NCBI RefSeq assembly: GCF_018424605.1
Contig: NZ_QTKT01000003.1
Location: 310,001-374,000 of the forward strand
DNA from: Marinobacter lipolyticus
Lineage (GTDB): Bacteria; Pseudomonadota; Gammaproteobacteria; Pseudomonadales; Oleiphilaceae
Direction: 5' to 3'
DNA: 64,000 nucleotides
This document shows positions 42,143 through 58,096 of this stretch, in pieces (within the stretch, counting starts at the first letter, position 1; each line of letters starts with the position of its first letter). The translations under genes and the position numbers were made by a program. The notes beneath the pieces are model-generated. The model saw only the letters and a program-made list of their open reading frames with translations. It was not told where the DNA came from and did not search any database.

Positions 42143-42883
42143 TCACAGTCTGCTGACTTTGCCCATCAGCCTGCGCCAGTCAATGGGTAGCCGTTGTTCC
42201 AGATCGGCTAACACCGGATCTCGCGAGGCTATGGATTCGAAATGGGTTTTGCTGGCGTAGATCACGGTGTTGTTGCTCTTGCTCCTGAACATCAGTACCA
42301 CCCGGAAGTGCTGCTTCAGTTGGCGAAGATAGGGCCCTTCCGGGTCCGGGGCGCGGTGGTAATTCAGCACCAACCAGCCGTCGCTCCCCAGCGCCCGCGC
42401 GCAGTCATCCACGAATTGCCGCTGCGCCTGGGCCGGACTCATGCGGTCAGCGGTATAAAGATCGGCCAGAATCATGTCTGTGCCGGCGGGAGGCAGCGTT
42501 GCGAGGGCGTCCCGGGCATCGGCGATGGTCACCGTAAGGCGTTCGCTGTCGGGCAGATCGAAGAATGCCCGTGCGGTATCCAGCACCGCCTGACGCAGCT
42601 CGACCGCGTGTATCCGGCAGTGCGGGTACAGGTGGTGAAAGGCGCTGGCCATAACGCCACCGCCAAGCCCGAGAACGGTGACGTGGCGAGGGTTGGCAAA
42701 AACGGCCGGTAACATCATCGCCCGGTTGTATTCATGAACCGGCAGGTACGGGTAGCGACGATCGATCTTGCTCTGCTCGAACGCCGAGTTGAAGGTCAGC
42801 ACCCGATGTTTGCGGTAGTCGATCACCAGGATACTGCCCAGAGCATCCCGGGTGTGATGGATAATATCGCCTTTGCCGAACAC
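42143..42883 (-). CDS. spermidine synthase-like methyltransferase-fold protein
   Basis: A 246-residue protein of the polyamine-synthase superfamily: QSKIDRRYPYLPVHEYNRAMMLPAVFANPRHVTVLGLGGG holds the substrate and nucleotide sites, then ADARDAL and ILADLYTAD. It is close in shape to SpeE but lacks clear identity of all active-site residues by eye, so aminopropyl transfer is probable but not certain. It starts 5 bp after an ankyrin-repeat gene, indicating translational coupling. Confidence 0.72.
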   Translation of the reverse strand: MFGKGDIIHHTRDALGSILVIDYRKHRVLTFNSAFEQSKIDRRYPYLPVHEYNRAMMLPAVFANPRHVTVLGLGGGVMASAFHHLYPHCRIHAVELRQAVLDTARAFFDLPDSERLTVTIADARDALATLPPAGTDMILADLYTADRMSPAQAQRQFVDDCARALGSDGWLVLNYHRAPDPEGPYLRQLKQHFRVVLMFRSKSNNTVIYASKTHFESIASRDPVLADLEQRLPIDWRRLMGKVSRL

Positions 42884-48687: not shown

Positions 48688-50898
48688 ATGGCAGTGAAAA
48701 AATGGATTCTGCTCGCAGTGATCGCGGCGGTGGTTATCGGATTTATCGCCAGCGGCGGCAATGAGCTGCTGACACTGCAGAATCTCAAGGACAATCAGCA
48801 GCTTCTGGCCAGCTGGATCGAACAGAATCTGGCCGTAGCGGTGTTTGGCTTTGTCGGCATCTATGTGGTGGTGACGGCATTGTCGCTGCCCGGTGCGGCC
48901 ATCATGACCCTCGCCGGCGGGGCGTTCTTCGGTAATCTCTACGGACTGATGGCGGTGTCGGTGGCTTCGACCATCGGGGCGTCGATTGCGTTTCTGGTGG
49001 CCCGCTTTCTGATGCGGGATACGTTACGCAAGCGCTACCGCGACACGGTCGCCAAGATGGACCGGGGCATCGAGAAAGACGGCGCGTTCTATCTGGCGAC
49101 CCTCCGCCTGGTGCCGGTTTTTCCCTTCTTTCTGATCAATCTGGCCATGGGCCTGACGTCCATGAAACTGCGCACCTACGCATTGGTGAGCTGGGCGGCG
49201 ATGCTGCCGGGGACGTTCGTGTTTGTGAATGCCGGGACCCAGCTCGGGCAGATCCAGTCCACCGGTGACATTCTGTCGGCCGAATTGCTGCTGTCGTTCG
49301 CCTTGCTGGGGCTGTTTCCCCTGATCGCCAAGCTGGTGGTGGGCTTTATTCGCCGGCGCCGGGTCTATGCCGGCTGGCAGAAGCCCGACGCCTTTGACTA
49401 CAACCTGTTGGTGATCGGCGGCGGCTCGGCCGGGCTGGTGTCCGCCTACATTGCCGCCGCGGTGAAAGCCAAAGTGGCGCTGATCGAAAAAGACAAGATG
49501 GGGGGCGATTGCCTCAATACCGGCTGCGTGCCTTCCAAGGCGCTGATTCGCAGCGCCAGGGCGGCGGATACCATGCGCCATGGCAACCGTTACGGTCTCG
49601 AATCCGTGCCGGTGAAGGGCTCCTTCAAAAACATCATGAACCGCGTGCAGAAGGTCGTGGCCAAAGTAGAACCCCACGACTCGCCCGAACGCTACCGCAA
49701 CCTGGGGGTGGACTGCCTTTTCGGTGAAGCCAGCTTCGTCTCTCCCTGGGAGCTGGAAGTGAAACACAACGACGGTCGCACCGAGCGACTGACGGCGCGC
49801 AGCATCGTGGTGGCCACCGGCGGTAAACCCGCCATGCCGCCGATTCCCGGACTGGCGGACATGAACCCGCTGACCTCGGATAACCTGTGGCAGCTGGAGG
49901 ATCAGCCGCAACGCCTGCTGGTGCTCGGTGGCGGCCCCATCGGGTCGGAGCTGGCCCACGCCTTTGCCCGCCTGGGCAGCCAGGTGATTCAGGTGGAAAT
50001 GGCCGAGCGCCTGCTGATCAAAGAAGACCCTGAGGTGTCGGAGCTGATCCGTCAGCAGTTCGAGCAAGACGGCATTGATCTGAGGCTCGGCCATGCGGCG
50101 AAAGAATTTGCCCTCGAAGACGGCGAAAAAGTGGTGTACTGCGAGCATCAGGGCGAGCGGGTTCGTATAGCGTTTGATGAAGTGCTGGTGGCGGTCGGGC
50201 GCGCCGCCAATACCCGCGGGCTGGGGCTGGAGAACATCGGCGTGGAAACCCTGCCCAATGGTACCGTGCCGGTGGCGGAGGACATGAGCCTGCGTTTCCC
50301 CAATGTGTTCGCCTGTGGAGATGTGGCGGGCCCCTACCAGTTTACCCACGCGGCTGCCCATCAGGCCTGGTACGCGGCGGTCAACGGGCTTTTTGGTCAG
50401 TTCAAGCGCTTCCGCGTGGATTACCGGGTGATGCCCTGGGTGACCTTTACCTCACCGGAAGTGGCGCGGGTGGGCCTCAGCGAGACAGAAGCGCAGCAAC
50501 AGGGGGTTGCCTACGAGGTGACCCGCTACGGCCTGGATGATCTGGATCGTGCCATTGCGGAAAGCGAGGACCACGGCTTCATCAAGGTGCTGACGCCCCC
50601 GGGCAAGGACCGGATTCTGGGTGCCGTGGTGGTGGGAACCCACGCCGGTGAAATCCTGGCGGAATTCACCCTTGCGATGAAGCATGGCCTGGGTCTGAAC
50701 AAAATCCTCGGCACCATCCACCCGTACCCGACCTGGAACGAGTCGGCAAAGTACGCGGCCGGCGAGTGGAAACGTGCCCACGCCCCCCAGGGCGTGCTGA
50801 ACCTGCTGGAAAAACTGCACGGCTGGCGCCGTGGCAAAAACACGAATGCATCAAGGAACACCTATGCCCCTGACCGTAACCCGACCGGCCCGCAGTAA
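48688..50898 (+). CDS. TVP38/TMEM64 membrane domain fused to flavin disulfide oxidoreductase
   Basis: A 736-residue fusion. Residues 1-225 form a TVP38/DedA-like membrane domain (GAAIMTLAGGAFFG, FPFFLINLAMGLT). From about 235 a pyridine nucleotide-disulfide reductase follows: VIGGGSAGLVSAYIAA (FAD), redox pair C275/C280 (CLNTGC), GGGPIGSELAHAF (NAD(P)H), ACGDVAGPYQFTHAA and a C-terminal dimerisation domain with HPYPTWNESAKY. It resembles mercuric reductase or lipoamide dehydrogenase, but no metal-binding N-terminal domain is present. The terminal catalytic histidine-proline is there. Its last 35 bases overlap the radical SAM gene. The substrate is unknown. Confidence 0.9.
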   Translation: MAVKKWILLAVIAAVVIGFIASGGNELLTLQNLKDNQQLLASWIEQNLAVAVFGFVGIYVVVTALSLPGAAIMTLAGGAFFGNLYGLMAVSVASTIGASIAFLVARFLMRDTLRKRYRDTVAKMDRGIEKDGAFYLATLRLVPVFPFFLINLAMGLTSMKLRTYALVSWAAMLPGTFVFVNAGTQLGQIQSTGDILSAELLLSFALLGLFPLIAKLVVGFIRRRRVYAGWQKPDAFDYNLLVIGGGSAGLVSAYIAAAVKAKVALIEKDKMGGDCLNTGCVPSKALIRSARAADTMRHGNRYGLESVPVKGSFKNIMNRVQKVVAKVEPHDSPERYRNLGVDCLFGEASFVSPWELEVKHNDGRTERLTARSIVVATGGKPAMPPIPGLADMNPLTSDNLWQLEDQPQRLLVLGGGPIGSELAHAFARLGSQVIQVEMAERLLIKEDPEVSELIRQQFEQDGIDLRLGHAAKEFALEDGEKVVYCEHQGERVRIAFDEVLVAVGRAANTRGLGLENIGVETLPNGTVPVAEDMSLRFPNVFACGDVAGPYQFTHAAAHQAWYAAVNGLFGQFKRFRVDYRVMPWVTFTSPEVARVGLSETEAQQQGVAYEVTRYGLDDLDRAIAESEDHGFIKVLTPPGKDRILGAVVVGTHAGEILAEFTLAMKHGLGLNKILGTIHPYPTWNESAKYAAGEWKRAHAPQGVLNLLEKLHGWRRGKNTNASRNTYAPDRNPTGPQ

Positions 50899-51835
50899 GC
50901 GCATTCCGGCCGTGGAAGTGCTCGAACCCAGGGCGCGCGACAGCTGGACCCACACCCGCAACGGCGACCCGCGCGGCTACATCGATGCGGACCAGCTGAA
51001 AGAGCTGTGGATTCACACCGGCACCGCCTGCAACCTGGCCTGCCCGTTCTGCCTCGAGGGTTCGCACCCCGGCGACGGGCGGATTCCCGGCATGAAACTC
51101 AGTGACGTGAAACCGTTCATTCACGAAGCCATCGACATGGGTGTGGAGCAATTCTCCTTCACCGGTGGTGAGCCGTTTGTGATTCGCGATTTCGTCAACA
51201 TCCTCGACTACGCCAGCCAGCACCGGCCCTGCTTCGTGCTCACCAACGCCACCGAACCGCTGCTGAAGCGCCGCCACCAGGTGCTGCCGTTGCTGGACAA
51301 CCCCTACCCGATTCACTTCCGTGTCAGCCTGGATTTCCCGGACCGCGCCCGCCACGACAAGGATCGCGGCGATGGCAGCTTCGATCAGGCGCTGGAAGGC
51401 ATTCGCTGGCTGATCGAACAGGGCTTCAAGGTATCGATTGCCCGCCAGACCGATCCCCAGGAGATCCCCGCGGACGTGGAAGCGAGGTTCCGCGACATCT
51501 TCCGCGCATGGGAGATTCCCGAGACCCTGGCATTCACCGCGTTTCCGGACCTGGGTACGCCCGGTTCGGAGGACGGCAGCCCGGAGATCACCGAAACCTG
51601 CATGGAGAAGTACCCGACCCGGGAAGCCCGTTCCCACTTCATGTGTACCTACACACGCATGCTGGTGAAAAAGGGCGACCAGGTGCGGGTGTATGCCTGC
51701 ACGCTGGTGGACGACGATCCCCAGTACGACCTGGGCGGCACCCTGGCCGAGAGCATGGACGAGCGCATCATGTTGCGGCACCACCGGTGCTTTTCCTGTT
51801 ACCGGTTCGGAGCCAGTTGTTCGGCGCCTGGCTGA
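50864..51835 (+). CDS. radical SAM enzyme
   Basis: A 323-residue protein with the cluster motif C56-x3-C60-x2-C63 (CNLACPFC), the glycine-rich FTGGEPF and a partial TIM barrel. The C-terminus is cysteine-rich (RCFSCYRFGASCSAPG), suggesting a second cluster or metal site. I recognise the general SPASM-like/Fe-S oxidoreductase type but not the reaction. The ATG lies after AAGGA, and the first 35 bases overlap the preceding gene. A symporter and phosphoesterase follow. Confidence 0.88.
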   Translation: MPLTVTRPARSKRIPAVEVLEPRARDSWTHTRNGDPRGYIDADQLKELWIHTGTACNLACPFCLEGSHPGDGRIPGMKLSDVKPFIHEAIDMGVEQFSFTGGEPFVIRDFVNILDYASQHRPCFVLTNATEPLLKRRHQVLPLLDNPYPIHFRVSLDFPDRARHDKDRGDGSFDQALEGIRWLIEQGFKVSIARQTDPQEIPADVEARFRDIFRAWEIPETLAFTAFPDLGTPGSEDGSPEITETCMEKYPTREARSHFMCTYTRMLVKKGDQVRVYACTLVDDDPQYDLGGTLAESMDERIMLRHHRCFSCYRFGASCSAPG

Positions 51836-51884
51836 TTGTTTTGTCTCCGGGTTTGGGGCCGCTGGTTTCTGGGCTCGGAGTTTC

Positions 51885-51968
51885 GGCCATTGGGGTTGGG
51901 GAGACCTTCCAAAACGAGAACCGTGGCTTCTCTGACTGTTTTGGAAGGTCTCCCCAACCCCAACGGCC
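51885..51968. repeat. long palindrome 1
   Basis: Perfect 26-bp arms (51890-51915 with 51938-51963), then one mismatch and four more pairs (GGCC). Loop of 22 bases holds an inner stem GAGAA/TTCTC. The arm reads outward-in GGGGTTGGGGAGACC then TTCCAAAAC. Its core (TCCAAAAC ... GTTTTGGA) and loop block GAAGCCACG (here on the minus strand) recur in palindrome 2. Confidence 0.95.
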
Positions 51969-52016
51969 TTGTTTGACTGACGTGGTGTTTCAGACGGCGT
52001 TTGCCAAAGTTCGGTG

Positions 52017-52103
52017 GCTGGTGAGGGGCAGGTGTAGGAATCCAAAACATTAAAAGAAGCCACGCTTCTCCGTTTTGGATTCCTACACCTGCCCCTCACC
52101 GGC
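52017..52103. repeat. long palindrome 2
   Basis: Perfect 29-bp arms (52020-52048 with 52072-52100), then a G-T pair and up to three more pairs. Loop of 23 bases with an inner stem AGAAG/CTTCT around CCACG. The outer arm is GGTGAGGGGCAGGTGTAGGA, unrelated to that of palindrome 1, while the inner TCCAAAAC and loop are shared. It ends 33 bp before the symporter start. Confidence 0.95.
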
Positions 52104-52136
52104 CCGCCCCCAAAGACAAAGAACCGGAAATGAACA

Positions 52137-53546
52137 ATGAACTTCACTGAAGCCTCCCTGTTCTGGGGATTTTTGCTGGTCTACGGCGTGGTCATGTACG
52201 TGCTGTCCCCGAAGAGCAAGAACGCCAATTCGTTCTACAAGGGCGCGGATGATCACGGTAACCCGGTGGGTCAGTGGTCACTGACCGCCAGTATCTTCAT
52301 CAGCTGGATTTTCGCCAAGTCCGTCACCAACGCCGCCAATCTGGGTGCCGCGTATGGCGTGGTGGGCGGGCTGGCGTATGCCAGTTACTGGCTGTCCATC
52401 CCGGTGGCCGGTTACGTGATCTACCTGATCCGTACCCAGACCGGCGCCCGCAGCCTGCAGGACTTTCTGACCTCCCGGTTTGGCCGGCTTGCCAGCCTGG
52501 CGTTTGCGGCAGCCATCCTGATCCGGCTGTATAACGAGGTCTGGAGCAACACCGCGGTGGTGGGCGGTTATTTTGGGCTGCCCGGTGAGTGGGAGTACTA
52601 CTCCGCGGCGATGCTGTTCACCCTGTTTACCCTGGCCTACAGCCTCAAGGGTGGGCTGCGGTCATCCATATTCACCGACGTGATTCAGGCGTTCGTGTTT
52701 GTGTTTTTCGTCGGGGCCGTGCTGTTCCTGATCGTTCCCGCCAACGACACCAGTGCGCTGCTGACCAATGGCGAATTCCGACTCAATGCCGGCTTCGACC
52801 TGCTGCTGGTGGCCCTGCTGCAGCTGTTCAGCTACCCGTTCCATGACCCGGTACTGACCGATCGGGGCTTCGTGAACAAAGAAAAGACCATGCTCAAGAG
52901 CTTTGTGGTGGCGGGCCTGCTGGGCTTTGTCGCGGTGTTTATCTTCAGCCTGGTGGGCGTGCATGCGCGGCTTAACGGCATCGAGGCCATGGGCAACGCG
53001 CCGGCGGCTGTAGGACAGTCACTGGGGTTGGCGGCGCTGTTCTTCATGAGCGTGGTGATGATGACCTCGGCGGGCTCCACCCTCGACTCCACCTTTACCT
53101 CGCTGGCCAAATCCCTGGCGGTGGATCTGCCCCGGCTGGCACGCCGCGCCTCAGAAAAACTGCCGAGTATGCGAGTCGGTGCCGTGGTGATGGTTGTGTT
53201 CGCGTTTCTCGGCAACCTGCCGATGTTCGCCGGCACCGACATCCTCAAGGCCACCACCATCTCCGGCAGCATGGTGATGGGGCTGGCGCCGGTGTTTCTG
53301 TTCTACGGTTTTACCCGCTGGTCGCCCTGGAGTTTCCACCTGAGTTTCTGGACCGGGCTGGGACTGGGTGTGCTGCTGGCGGTGGGCCTGATTCCGTCAA
53401 GCTGGGCGATCGGCGACGGGGCCTACGGGCTGCTGCTCGGCGTCAATGCCTATGGCTTCCTGATCTGTACCGCCGGGTTTTTCCTGCCGTTGTTGGTTCG
53501 CCGGCTAGCGGGCCGTTCACTGGCGGCTGGCGAGGCCCGGGGTTAG
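52137..53546 (+). CDS. sodium:solute symporter (SSS family)
   Basis: A 469-residue protein with about twelve to thirteen membrane helices. SSS hallmarks are SPKSKNANSFYKGAD, SIFISWIFAKSVTNAANLGAAYG and the later MMTSAGSTLDSTFTSLAKSLAVDL, where small hydroxyl residues form the sodium sites. The substrate is not inferable. It lies 301 bp after the radical SAM gene, the gap being filled by two palindromes, and 4 bp before the phosphoesterase gene. Confidence 0.9.
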   Translation: MNFTEASLFWGFLLVYGVVMYVLSPKSKNANSFYKGADDHGNPVGQWSLTASIFISWIFAKSVTNAANLGAAYGVVGGLAYASYWLSIPVAGYVIYLIRTQTGARSLQDFLTSRFGRLASLAFAAAILIRLYNEVWSNTAVVGGYFGLPGEWEYYSAAMLFTLFTLAYSLKGGLRSSIFTDVIQAFVFVFFVGAVLFLIVPANDTSALLTNGEFRLNAGFDLLLVALLQLFSYPFHDPVLTDRGFVNKEKTMLKSFVVAGLLGFVAVFIFSLVGVHARLNGIEAMGNAPAAVGQSLGLAALFFMSVVMMTSAGSTLDSTFTSLAKSLAVDLPRLARRASEKLPSMRVGAVVMVVFAFLGNLPMFAGTDILKATTISGSMVMGLAPVFLFYGFTRWSPWSFHLSFWTGLGLGVLLAVGLIPSSWAIGDGAYGLLLGVNAYGFLICTAGFFLPLLVRRLAGRSLAAGEARG

Positions 53547-54615: not shown

Positions 54616-54650
54616 TTAACCCTAACTTTTTGACGCGAAACCATCACGCT

Positions 54651-55166
54651 ATGACCTCAGAAGGATCGAATACCACCGCCATCACCCTCCGCACACCGGT
54701 CAAGGATGATGGCTACAGACTTCACCAGCTGGTGGCGGAATGCCCGCCGCTGGACCCCAACTCGATTTACTGCAACCTGTTGCAGTGCAGCCACTTTGCC
54801 GACACCGGCGTGGCCGCGGAGAAGGACGGCGATCTGGTCGGCTTTATCTCCGGATACATCCCTCCCCAACAGCCCGATACCGTGTTTGTGTGGCAGGTGG
54901 CCGTTCACGAGAAAGGTCGTGGACAGGGCCTGGCTAAGCGGATGCTGAAAGAGATCGTGGCCCGGGATGCGTGCCGCAAGGTGACGCACCTGGAAACCAC
55001 CATCACCGAGGACAACGAAGCCTCCTGGGCGCTGTTCCGTTCGTTCGCACGTGATCTGGGGGCGGAGCTCACCTACCACGAGCACTTTGAGAAAGAGACC
55101 CACTTCGGCGGCCAGCACGATTCCGAATTCCTGCTGCGCATCGGGCCTTTCACCAAGCCAGTCTGA
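54651..55166 (+). CDS. ectA: L-2,4-diaminobutyrate acetyltransferase
   Basis: A 171-residue GNAT-family protein. It carries the typical EctA opening (ITLRTPVKDDGYRLHQLVAECPPLDPNSIYCNLLQCSHF) and the acetyl-CoA site (VAVHEKGRGQGLAKRML). It acetylates L-2,4-diaminobutyrate at the gamma nitrogen, the second step of ectoine synthesis. The ATG at 54651 lacks a strong ribosome site; a TTG at 54630 is an alternative. It is driven by the promoter at 54588, and ectB follows after 168 bp. Confidence 0.95.
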   Translation: MTSEGSNTTAITLRTPVKDDGYRLHQLVAECPPLDPNSIYCNLLQCSHFADTGVAAEKDGDLVGFISGYIPPQQPDTVFVWQVAVHEKGRGQGLAKRMLKEIVARDACRKVTHLETTITEDNEASWALFRSFARDLGAELTYHEHFEKETHFGGQHDSEFLLRIGPFTKPV

Positions 55167-55213
55167 GAGTCTGTGACAGACACAGGCATTACTGACCGCA
55201 ATACGGACGAGCC

Positions 55214-56603
<1,390 letters not shown>

Positions 56604-56653
56604 GGCGCCCGCTCACCCCGACATTCATTCTGCAGGATAGCGAAGACAACACT

Positions 56654-58096
56654 ATGACGAGTCAATTGCATACCGTAGAGAAAATCGGCGGCACCTCGAT
56701 GAGCAACTACGAGGCCGTTCGCGACAACATCATCATTGGCGGGCGCAGCAAGGAAGACCTGTACCAGCGGATTTTCGTGGTCTCCGCCTACGGCGGCGTC
56801 ACCAATGAGCTGCTGGAACACAAGAAAACCGGCGAGCCCGGCGTGTACGCGCTGTTTGCCGATGCCGAATCCGACTGGGCCTGGGGTGACGATCTCACCA
56901 AACTGGTGAAGTTCCTCACCGACATCAACGGCGAGCTGTTCGAGGACCCGATGCTGAAGCAGCAGGCGGACCAGTTCATCACCGACCGTATCGAGGGTGT
57001 GCGGGGCTGCCTGATTGATCTGCAGCGGTTGTGCTCCTACGGTCAGTTCCAGCTGGAAGAGCATCTGCTGACCGTGCGCGAAATGCTGGCGGGCATCGGC
57101 GAGGCCCACAGTGCCTTCAATACTGCACTCAAGCTTCAGCAGGAGGGCATCAACGCCCGCTTTGTGGATCTCACCGGCTGGCGCGACAACGAGTTGCTGC
57201 CGCTGGACCAGAAACTGAAGCAGGCGTTTGACGCTGTGGATCTGACCCGCGAACTGCCGATTGTCACCGGCTACGCCCAGTGCAAGGAAGGCCTGATGCG
57301 GACCTTCGACCGTGGCTACAGTGAAATGACCTTCAGCCGGGTGGCGGTGATTACCGAAGCCCGTGAGGCGATCATTCACAAGGAATACCACCTCAGCTCC
57401 GCCGACCCCAACATCGTCGGCGCCGACAAAGTGGTACCGCTGGGCCGCACCAACTACGACGTGGCCGACCAGCTGGCCAACCTCGGCATGGAGGCGATTC
57501 ACCCCCGTGCCGGCAAGGGCCTGCGCCAGAACGAAATTCCGCTGCGGGTGATGAACACCTTCGAGCCGGAGCATACCGGTACCCTGATCACCGGCGACTA
57601 CGTCAGTGAGAAGCCCCAGGTGGAGATTATTGCCGGTGCCAAGGGTGTGTTTGCGGTGGAGGTATTCGACCAGGACATGCAGGGTGAGCCCGGTTCCGAT
57701 CGCCGCATCCTGGACGTGCTGAGCCGCTTCAAGGTGCGTTTCATGTCCAAGGACACCAACGCCAACACCATCACCCATTACGTGGGCAGTACGCTGAAAC
57801 ACGTCAAGCGGGTGGTCAAGGCGCTGAAGGAAGAATTCCCCAACGCCGAGATCAACACCCGCAAGGTGGCGGTGGTGTCGGCCATTGGCAGCGACATGAA
57901 AGTGCCGGGCATCCTCTCCCGTTCCGTGAAGGCGCTGGCCGACGAGGAAATCAGCGTACTGGCGCTGCACCAGTGCATGCGTCAGGTCGACATCCAGTTT
58001 GTGGTGGATGAAGACGACTACGAGAAGACCATCGTGGCTCTGCACGGCGTGCTGATTGAACCTCACAATCACGAGTACGCCATTGTCGCGGCGTAA
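56654..58096 (+). CDS. ask: aspartate kinase of the ectoine type
   Basis: A 480-residue aspartokinase of the Ask_Ect group, which lies in ectoine operons and resists feedback control that would limit osmolyte supply. The N-terminus HTVEKIGGTSMSNYEAVRDN holds the kinase motif; FVVSAYGGVTNELLEH and the ACT-type C-terminus (AVVSAIGSDMKVPG, ALHQCMRQVDIQFVV) follow. It phosphorylates aspartate to feed EctB through aspartate semialdehyde. Confidence 0.93.
   Translation: MTSQLHTVEKIGGTSMSNYEAVRDNIIIGGRSKEDLYQRIFVVSAYGGVTNELLEHKKTGEPGVYALFADAESDWAWGDDLTKLVKFLTDINGELFEDPMLKQQADQFITDRIEGVRGCLIDLQRLCSYGQFQLEEHLLTVREMLAGIGEAHSAFNTALKLQQEGINARFVDLTGWRDNELLPLDQKLKQAFDAVDLTRELPIVTGYAQCKEGLMRTFDRGYSEMTFSRVAVITEAREAIIHKEYHLSSADPNIVGADKVVPLGRTNYDVADQLANLGMEAIHPRAGKGLRQNEIPLRVMNTFEPEHTGTLITGDYVSEKPQVEIIAGAKGVFAVEVFDQDMQGEPGSDRRILDVLSRFKVRFMSKDTNANTITHYVGSTLKHVKRVVKALKEEFPNAEINTRKVAVVSAIGSDMKVPGILSRSVKALADEEISVLALHQCMRQVDIQFVVDEDDYEKTIVALHGVLIEPHNHEYAIVAA

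Follow-up and report, generated by a model that had tools for sequence, protein, structure and literature searches.

Dispersed intergenic hairpins with conserved tips and variable, self-complementary arms in Marinobacter

Several described systems resemble the palindromes dealt with here. In the TwoAYGGAY motif (RF01731), an outer stem encloses two hairpins whose loops read A-N-GGA-Y; this outer stem has been called not well conserved, and CsrA binding has been proposed for the family (PMC4333381). REP/BIME repeats, which comprise GTAG and CGTC palindromes, are mostly extragenic and multicopy, with a predominance of head-to-head dimers, which lie inside longer palindromes in some species, and their conserved stem is short, from 5 to 13 bp (PMC3733652). 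Intrinsic (Rho-independent) terminators are hairpins located after stop codons. Lastly, template switching has been reported to homogenise the arms of inverted repeats and to invert their spacers (PMC8604942), and it can maintain RNA hairpins (PMC8794818); the cases published in these two papers concern yeast genes, microRNAs and rRNA, whereas the elements described here form a dispersed bacterial family with conserved tips and a strand polarity. No title or abstract describing such palindromes in Marinobacter was found among the open-access papers listed, and the name Marinobacter occurs neither in PMC13155455 and PMC12306157 nor in the main text of PMC3733652.

The locus under study belongs to genome G000 (3.76 Mb, 46 contigs, 99.99% complete) and is located on its contig C33, in a 64-kb window, by which is meant the whole stretch of DNA analysed. 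The features of the locus are as follows, in positions of the window:

50831..51835, plus strand: upstream gene, encoding a radical SAM protein and ending 49 bp before element A.
51885..51968, minus strand (the CCACG strand being the sense strand): element A, a palindrome with 31-bp arms and a type I tip, with a predicted folding energy of -68.7 kcal/mol on the minus strand and -62.9 kcal/mol on the plus strand.
51908..51945, minus strand: tip of A with its conserved inner arms, TCCAAAAC-N22-GTTTTGGA, a match to the core pattern.
51969..52015, no strand: 47-bp spacer of the divergent pair, between the outer ends of A and B.
52016..52104, plus strand (the CCACG strand being the sense strand): element B, a palindrome with 33-bp arms and a type I tip, with a predicted folding energy of -73.5 kcal/mol on the plus strand and -73.0 kcal/mol on the minus strand.
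52041..52079, plus strand: tip of B with its conserved inner arms, TCCAAAAC-N23-GTTTTGGA, a match to the core pattern.
52137..53546, plus strand: downstream gene, encoding a sodium:solute symporter (SSF) and starting 32 bp after B.

A and B form a divergent, head-to-head pair and belong to a dispersed kind of hairpin element with modular tips, in which two long arms carry a conserved tip. An earlier, sequence-only reading had described two long, near-perfect palindromes with a gap between them, and this is what is found: A has 26 perfect pairs at 51890-51963, or 31 pairs with one mismatch, and B has 29 perfect pairs at 52020-52100, or 33 pairs with one mismatch. On the CCACG strand, the sole arm mismatch of each element forms a G·U pair, which leaves the outer helix of that strand unbroken. 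The same reading correctly saw that the two share a nested core and have unrelated outer arms. On the CCACG strand, the core reads TCCAAAAC-AGTCAG-AGAAGCCACGGTTCT-C-GTTTTGGA in A (minus strand) and TCCAAAAC-ATTAAA-AGAAGCCACGCTTCT-CC-GTTTTGGA in B (plus strand). Of the 19 inverted repeats detected in the window with arms at most 80 bp apart, A and B are the longest; the core pattern has two matches in the window versus none in 100 shuffles, and on either strand of either element the folding z-score lies between -11.8 and -14.9. No sigma-70-like site was found in positions 51800-52200. The part of the query corresponding to the upstream gene gave an 84.7% match to a plasmid record of Marinobacter adhaerens. 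Further along (window positions 54630-58096), a row of genes for a GNAT acetyltransferase, a class-III aminotransferase and an aspartokinase-like protein (amino acid kinase plus ACT) resembles an ectoine synthesis cluster.

The pair is not a two-copy curiosity, and hairpins of this kind are far more frequent than expected by chance: Marinobacter chromosomes carry dozens of dispersed, intergenic long hairpins belonging to three tip families, the stems of which are variable and yet self-matching. A census with a cut-off of at least 15 net pairs was carried out on 1.25 Mb from three species (453.3 kb of contig C33 plus 400 kb each of G029 and G077). It yielded 87 hairpins, including 69 typed ones (17 of type I, 22 of type II and 30 of type III), 13 with a short loop and 5 untyped; one of the latter (C33:443317) resembles type III. 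The 453 kb of C33 contributed 30 of these hairpins; five first-order Markov sequences as long as this contig contained 0, 0, 0, 0 and 1. The arms of the typed hairpins are 16-36 bp long and their sequences are unlike from site to site. Tip I is the CCACG core present in A and B, tip II matches AACTCGCTNNGCTCARACA, and tip III is marked by a pair of GGA loops and by a sub-threshold TwoAYGGAY score. When the census stretches were searched starting from the tips, arms were present in 21/21 cases for type II and 14/14 for type I, and 30 of the 43 matches to a short type III pattern were armed. G000 as a whole carries about 70 candidates, namely 27 type II tips, 37 of type III (up to E 10) and 7 of type I; an extrapolation of the census to the genome (from 26 long-tip hairpins per 453 kb of C33) was dropped because the tip types are unevenly spread, 13 of the 27 type II tips being located on C33.

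The further copies of the core that the sequence-only reading proposed to look for exist both in its own genome and in related ones. Matches to the type I core pattern occur in 20 of the 124 genomes of the genus. Armed copies, of which there are 38 including A and B in the 31 stretches examined, occur in nine genomes (G000, G022, G029, G077, G085, G088, G092, G113 and G123); the by-eye check of the core matches omitted eight of them (the second match of G011 and those of G030, G037, G057, G062, G078, G095 and G106), and the armless matches L051 and L066-L069 were taken to be due to chance. In a collection of 84,980 species, a tighter type I pattern was found in 20 stretches, 17 of which belong to Marinobacter, 2 to Paraburkholderia and 1 to Clostridiales, the last three being a pattern match alone. 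In a sample of 293 genomes and 118 genera from the order, the type II pattern was detected in 26 genomes and 9 genera, and outside Marinobacter it amounts to the tip pattern alone. A 70-bp perfect arm with a type I tip at the very start of a contig (L061, G113:C6, 1-163) was rejected as probably an assembly fold-back artefact. In G077 (C1, near 42535-42765), a type III tip carries an extra insert of about 80 bp and its arms are still perfect. A repeat beginning with GTAGGTCGGATTAG forms long hairpins beside type I and type II elements (G029 C19 near 365451 and G077 C1 near 351418) and looks like another palindrome family.

In G000, type III alone gave matches to TwoAYGGAY (37 up to E 10), the best of which scored 42.7 bits and thus fell short of the gathering threshold of 43 bits. 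Two hairpins with AYGGAY-like loops were recognised by eye in 29 of the 30 type III loci, another fold having been picked in the remaining one (L201). Such loops are absent from the type I and type II tips shown, and neither of these types reached any Rfam threshold in the loci scanned; matches to microRNA families at four loci were all below the gathering scores and were taken to be generic long-hairpin scores. Type III therefore resembles TwoAYGGAY while scoring below its cut-off, and type I differs from it in having no such loops. By analogy with the proposal made for this related family, a CsrA-binding role may be proposed for type III. TwoAYGGAY-like elements would become members of a larger set of exchangeable tips, whose role is open to study by deletion in this cultivable marine genus.

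None of the 69 typed hairpins lies inside a predicted gene, and only one of the 30 hairpins on C33 does so, a short-loop one. All 39 hairpins of types I and II are located in tandem or convergent gaps, whereas divergent gaps make up 172 of all 592 gaps with a length of 60 bp or more; these counts include orthologs and depend on gene calls made with a codon model of our own. In G000, 11 of the 15 type I and II hairpins sit 11-49 bp from a stop codon and the other four are the second of a tandem pair. Such locations would suit long bidirectional transcription terminators, and the A-tract and T-tract flanking the type I tip, as well as a terminator-like stem and T-run in tip B on the minus strand, are in keeping with this function. 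The latter is one match of a scan for GC-rich stems plus T-runs which gave 3 sites versus 1.1 in shuffles (sd 1.2), a number not far above these. Unlike intrinsic terminators, the type I elements have their T-run within the stem, which would make the long arms superfluous, and these arms are variable and enclose large loops with conserved tips; in addition, 12 of the 30 type III hairpins are located in divergent gaps. We therefore regard a terminator function of this kind as quite unlikely. For types I and II, neither of which turned up in divergent gaps here, our best guess is that they may act as 3'-region hairpins ending, processing or stabilising transcripts. No rule was found between the sense of the tip and the direction of the neighbouring gene among the 69 typed hairpins, which is awkward for a plain 3'-UTR role and makes a single-stranded DNA hairpin an alternative to RNA.

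The elements share with REP/BIME repeats their extragenic location, their multiple copies and the head-to-head arrangement of close pairs. According to counts made by eye, pairs less than 700 bp apart were divergent in 7/7 cases for type II in G000, 13/13 for type II in other Marinobacter among the places listed, 3/3 for type III and 9/9, at few sites, for type I; in other families, among the places listed, the type II pairs of G257 and G309 are divergent and those of G280 and G288 are not. Mobile palindromes of this kind would be moved as single-stranded hairpins by a transposase, and the polarity of the tip would be that of the DNA strand recognised by the enzyme. Type I copies with inner arms in common occupy different sites in G000 and G029, as might be expected of such elements. 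No match to the Y1/RAYT transposase (PF01797, E 0.001) was found in the 99.99% complete G000, although 5 of 14 control genomes had one; the search was for the Y1 kind alone, and CGTC repeats are also without a dedicated transposase (PMC3733652). Moreover, a hairpin is present in G029 at 17 of 24 mapped G000 sites, which indicates little recent movement. Since the stems are far longer than those of REP, the arms are not conserved and no Y1 transposase was matched, membership of the REP/BIME group does not fit, and we find it unlikely that the palindromes are mobile elements resembling them. Loss of hairpins also occurs: the 7 other mapped sites had no detected hairpin in G029, one of them (C33:222005) carrying an eroded, sub-threshold one, and none was detected in G077 at 5 of 16 mapped sites.

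The two arms of an element change in concert. In 19 ortholog groups, arm and arm within an element differed at 21 of 1258 positions (1.7%), orthologous arms between species at 203 of 1839 (11%) and the flanks at 792 of 4110, in comparisons which are not independent within ortholog triples and involve groups chosen by hand as having a hairpin above an ungapped complementarity threshold in both genomes (the other sites being left out), so that asymmetric changes are hidden and symmetry is favoured. The compensated arm changes in these groups comprised 46 transitions and 38 transversions, along with 26 uncompensated columns, and 17 of the arm indels scored were symmetric and 1 asymmetric. In an alignment of 16 type I copies, 99.6% of the 512 cells are paired and 2 are unpaired; double-sided changes affect 140 cells and single-sided ones 2, and the covariation amounts to 0.738 versus 0.172 in shuffled and at most 0.166 in slid alignments. 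Arm homogenisation therefore exceeds independent compensation in the 19 groups, with the above selection caveats, and in the 16-copy alignment. When elements were picked via the flanking genes alone, a sampling with noisy alignments which did not capture type I at position A, the contrast persisted and was smaller, with 2.4-6.7% of differences within elements versus 9.2-15.1% between genomes: 2.4% versus 9.2% for type I at position B (7 elements), 6.7% versus 15.1% for type II at position A (26 elements) and 3.1% versus 13.9% for type III at position B (19 elements). Of the 428 pairs scored in this sample, 267 had as many indels in one arm as in the other and 161 did not. One-sided indels affect L059, the G029 copy of B and the copies of the second pair in G077 and G092, and many species have retained a C·A mismatch in the type II element of position A, which means that correction is not universal.

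If these were ordinary structured RNAs, complementarity would be kept by selection alone, through single compensating mutations passing via G·U intermediates. That 38 of the 84 compensated changes are transversions, that indels mostly affect both arms, that double-changed cells outnumber single-changed ones 140 to 2 in type I and that the tip changes orientation between orthologs all argue against this explanation, which we consider rather improbable even though the inner stem of type I covaries at 2 of its 5 pairs (the other 3 being invariant), TwoAYGGAY has been listed as probably an RNA (PMC2864571) and the leftover mismatches show a strand polarity.

This polarity, an excess of G·T over A·C on the sense strand, was observed with all three tip types in counts which include orthologs. 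The leftover mismatches of type III on the GGA-loop strand consist of 20 G·T, 1 A·C and 14 others (30 own copies, 855 pairs), or 18 G·T and 0 A·C if L201, where the other fold was picked, is set aside; those of type I on the CCACG strand consist of 17 G·T, 2 A·C and 12 others (48 copies, 1385 pairs). Type II shows 8 G·T, 50 A·C (18 of which are the one shared mismatch at position A) and 31 others on the GCTCAGACA strand (43 copies, 1228 pairs), and the excess of A·C means that the opposite strand is the sense strand. The hairpin of one strand thus also seems to be under selection, which supports the earlier suggestion that the arms are kept by selection on structure, in the form of selection on a single-strand hairpin. 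In a DNA hairpin, too, G·T has a higher stability than A·C, which makes the polarity compatible with REP/BIME-like mobility as well.

The explanation we hold to be fairly probable is that template switching keeps the arms alike, in combination with selection on the hairpin of one strand, and that the arms act as a clamp presenting the tip. DNA polymerase would switch template between the arms during replication, so that one arm would be copied onto the other, indels and transversions included, and the tip would sometimes be inverted. Purifying selection would also act on the hairpin of one tip-defined strand, RNA being the simplest candidate and a single-stranded DNA hairpin a possible one, and the clamp formed by the arms would be independent of their sequence. 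Concerted arms together with in-place inversion of the tip match the reported signature of template switching. By eye, the orientation of the tip was found to differ between orthologs in 5 of the 19 groups, namely C33:113529, 222005, 223982 and 266702 (type III) and 444252 (type II). In the last of these, the tip is flipped with respect to G077 and the arms are identical, which makes it the clearest in-place inversion; since identical arms occur only there, replacement by another element is possible in the other four. A type I site is flipped too (L052 versus L040 and L059).

The sequence-only reading had taken the pair for a mobile or conversion-maintained palindrome family in which only the core is heritable and the arms are made or replaced locally. 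The repeat family, the conserved tip, the variable self-complementary arms and a conversion-like upkeep all stand, and in aligned copies the arms are less conserved than the core, unlike those of an ordinary repeat. What finds no support is the exclusive heritability of the core: orthologous copies have recognisable arms in common, a local duplicate on C33 (290153/293075) has retained its arms except for one compensated pair, and a type I copy located elsewhere in G029 has 19 nt of inner arm and the tip variant in common with the C33:42922 copy of G000. In these cases, the arms travel with the core. At C33:390552, which is empty in G000, both arms of the G077 element are missing and there is thus no sign of arms having been copied from the target; with two genomes compared, insertion in G077 and loss in G000 are equally possible.

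The gap containing A and B was found in 120 of the 124 genomes, and 50 such gaps were examined, our own included, one of them (L096) lying on another contig of G001 that resembles a plasmid. According to a motif scan, 20 gaps carry the tip combination II/III, 9 carry I/I, 1 carries III/III and 1 (L122) carries II/II in the reverse arrangement; 14 have a single tip and 5 have none. Among the single-tip gaps, L134 is in the reverse sense and at least 3 others carry a second hairpin with a variant tip; in one gap without a tip (L075), hairpins are present and the tips are altered. Whatever the tip families, 30 of the 31 two-tip gaps show a minus-sense tip followed by a plus-sense one. A possible, if doubtful, extension of these findings is that the hairpins are genus-wide, cassette-like elements in which strand-specific, swappable tips would be carried by a self-correcting stem in a divergent orientation fixed at each site, with an exchange mechanism of their own, no Y1 transposase, and recognition in the form of either RNA or single-stranded DNA. 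The dozens of natural replicates that a genome offers, in a genus represented by 124 genomes, make it possible to measure how template switching upholds near-perfect hairpins under selection on one strand, which is an old question in RNA evolution.

Among the typed hairpins of C33, G029 and G077, G is more abundant than C in the 5' arm in 61 of 69 cases; a stem asymmetry in favour of G-C over C-G pairs is associated with template switching in PMC8794818.
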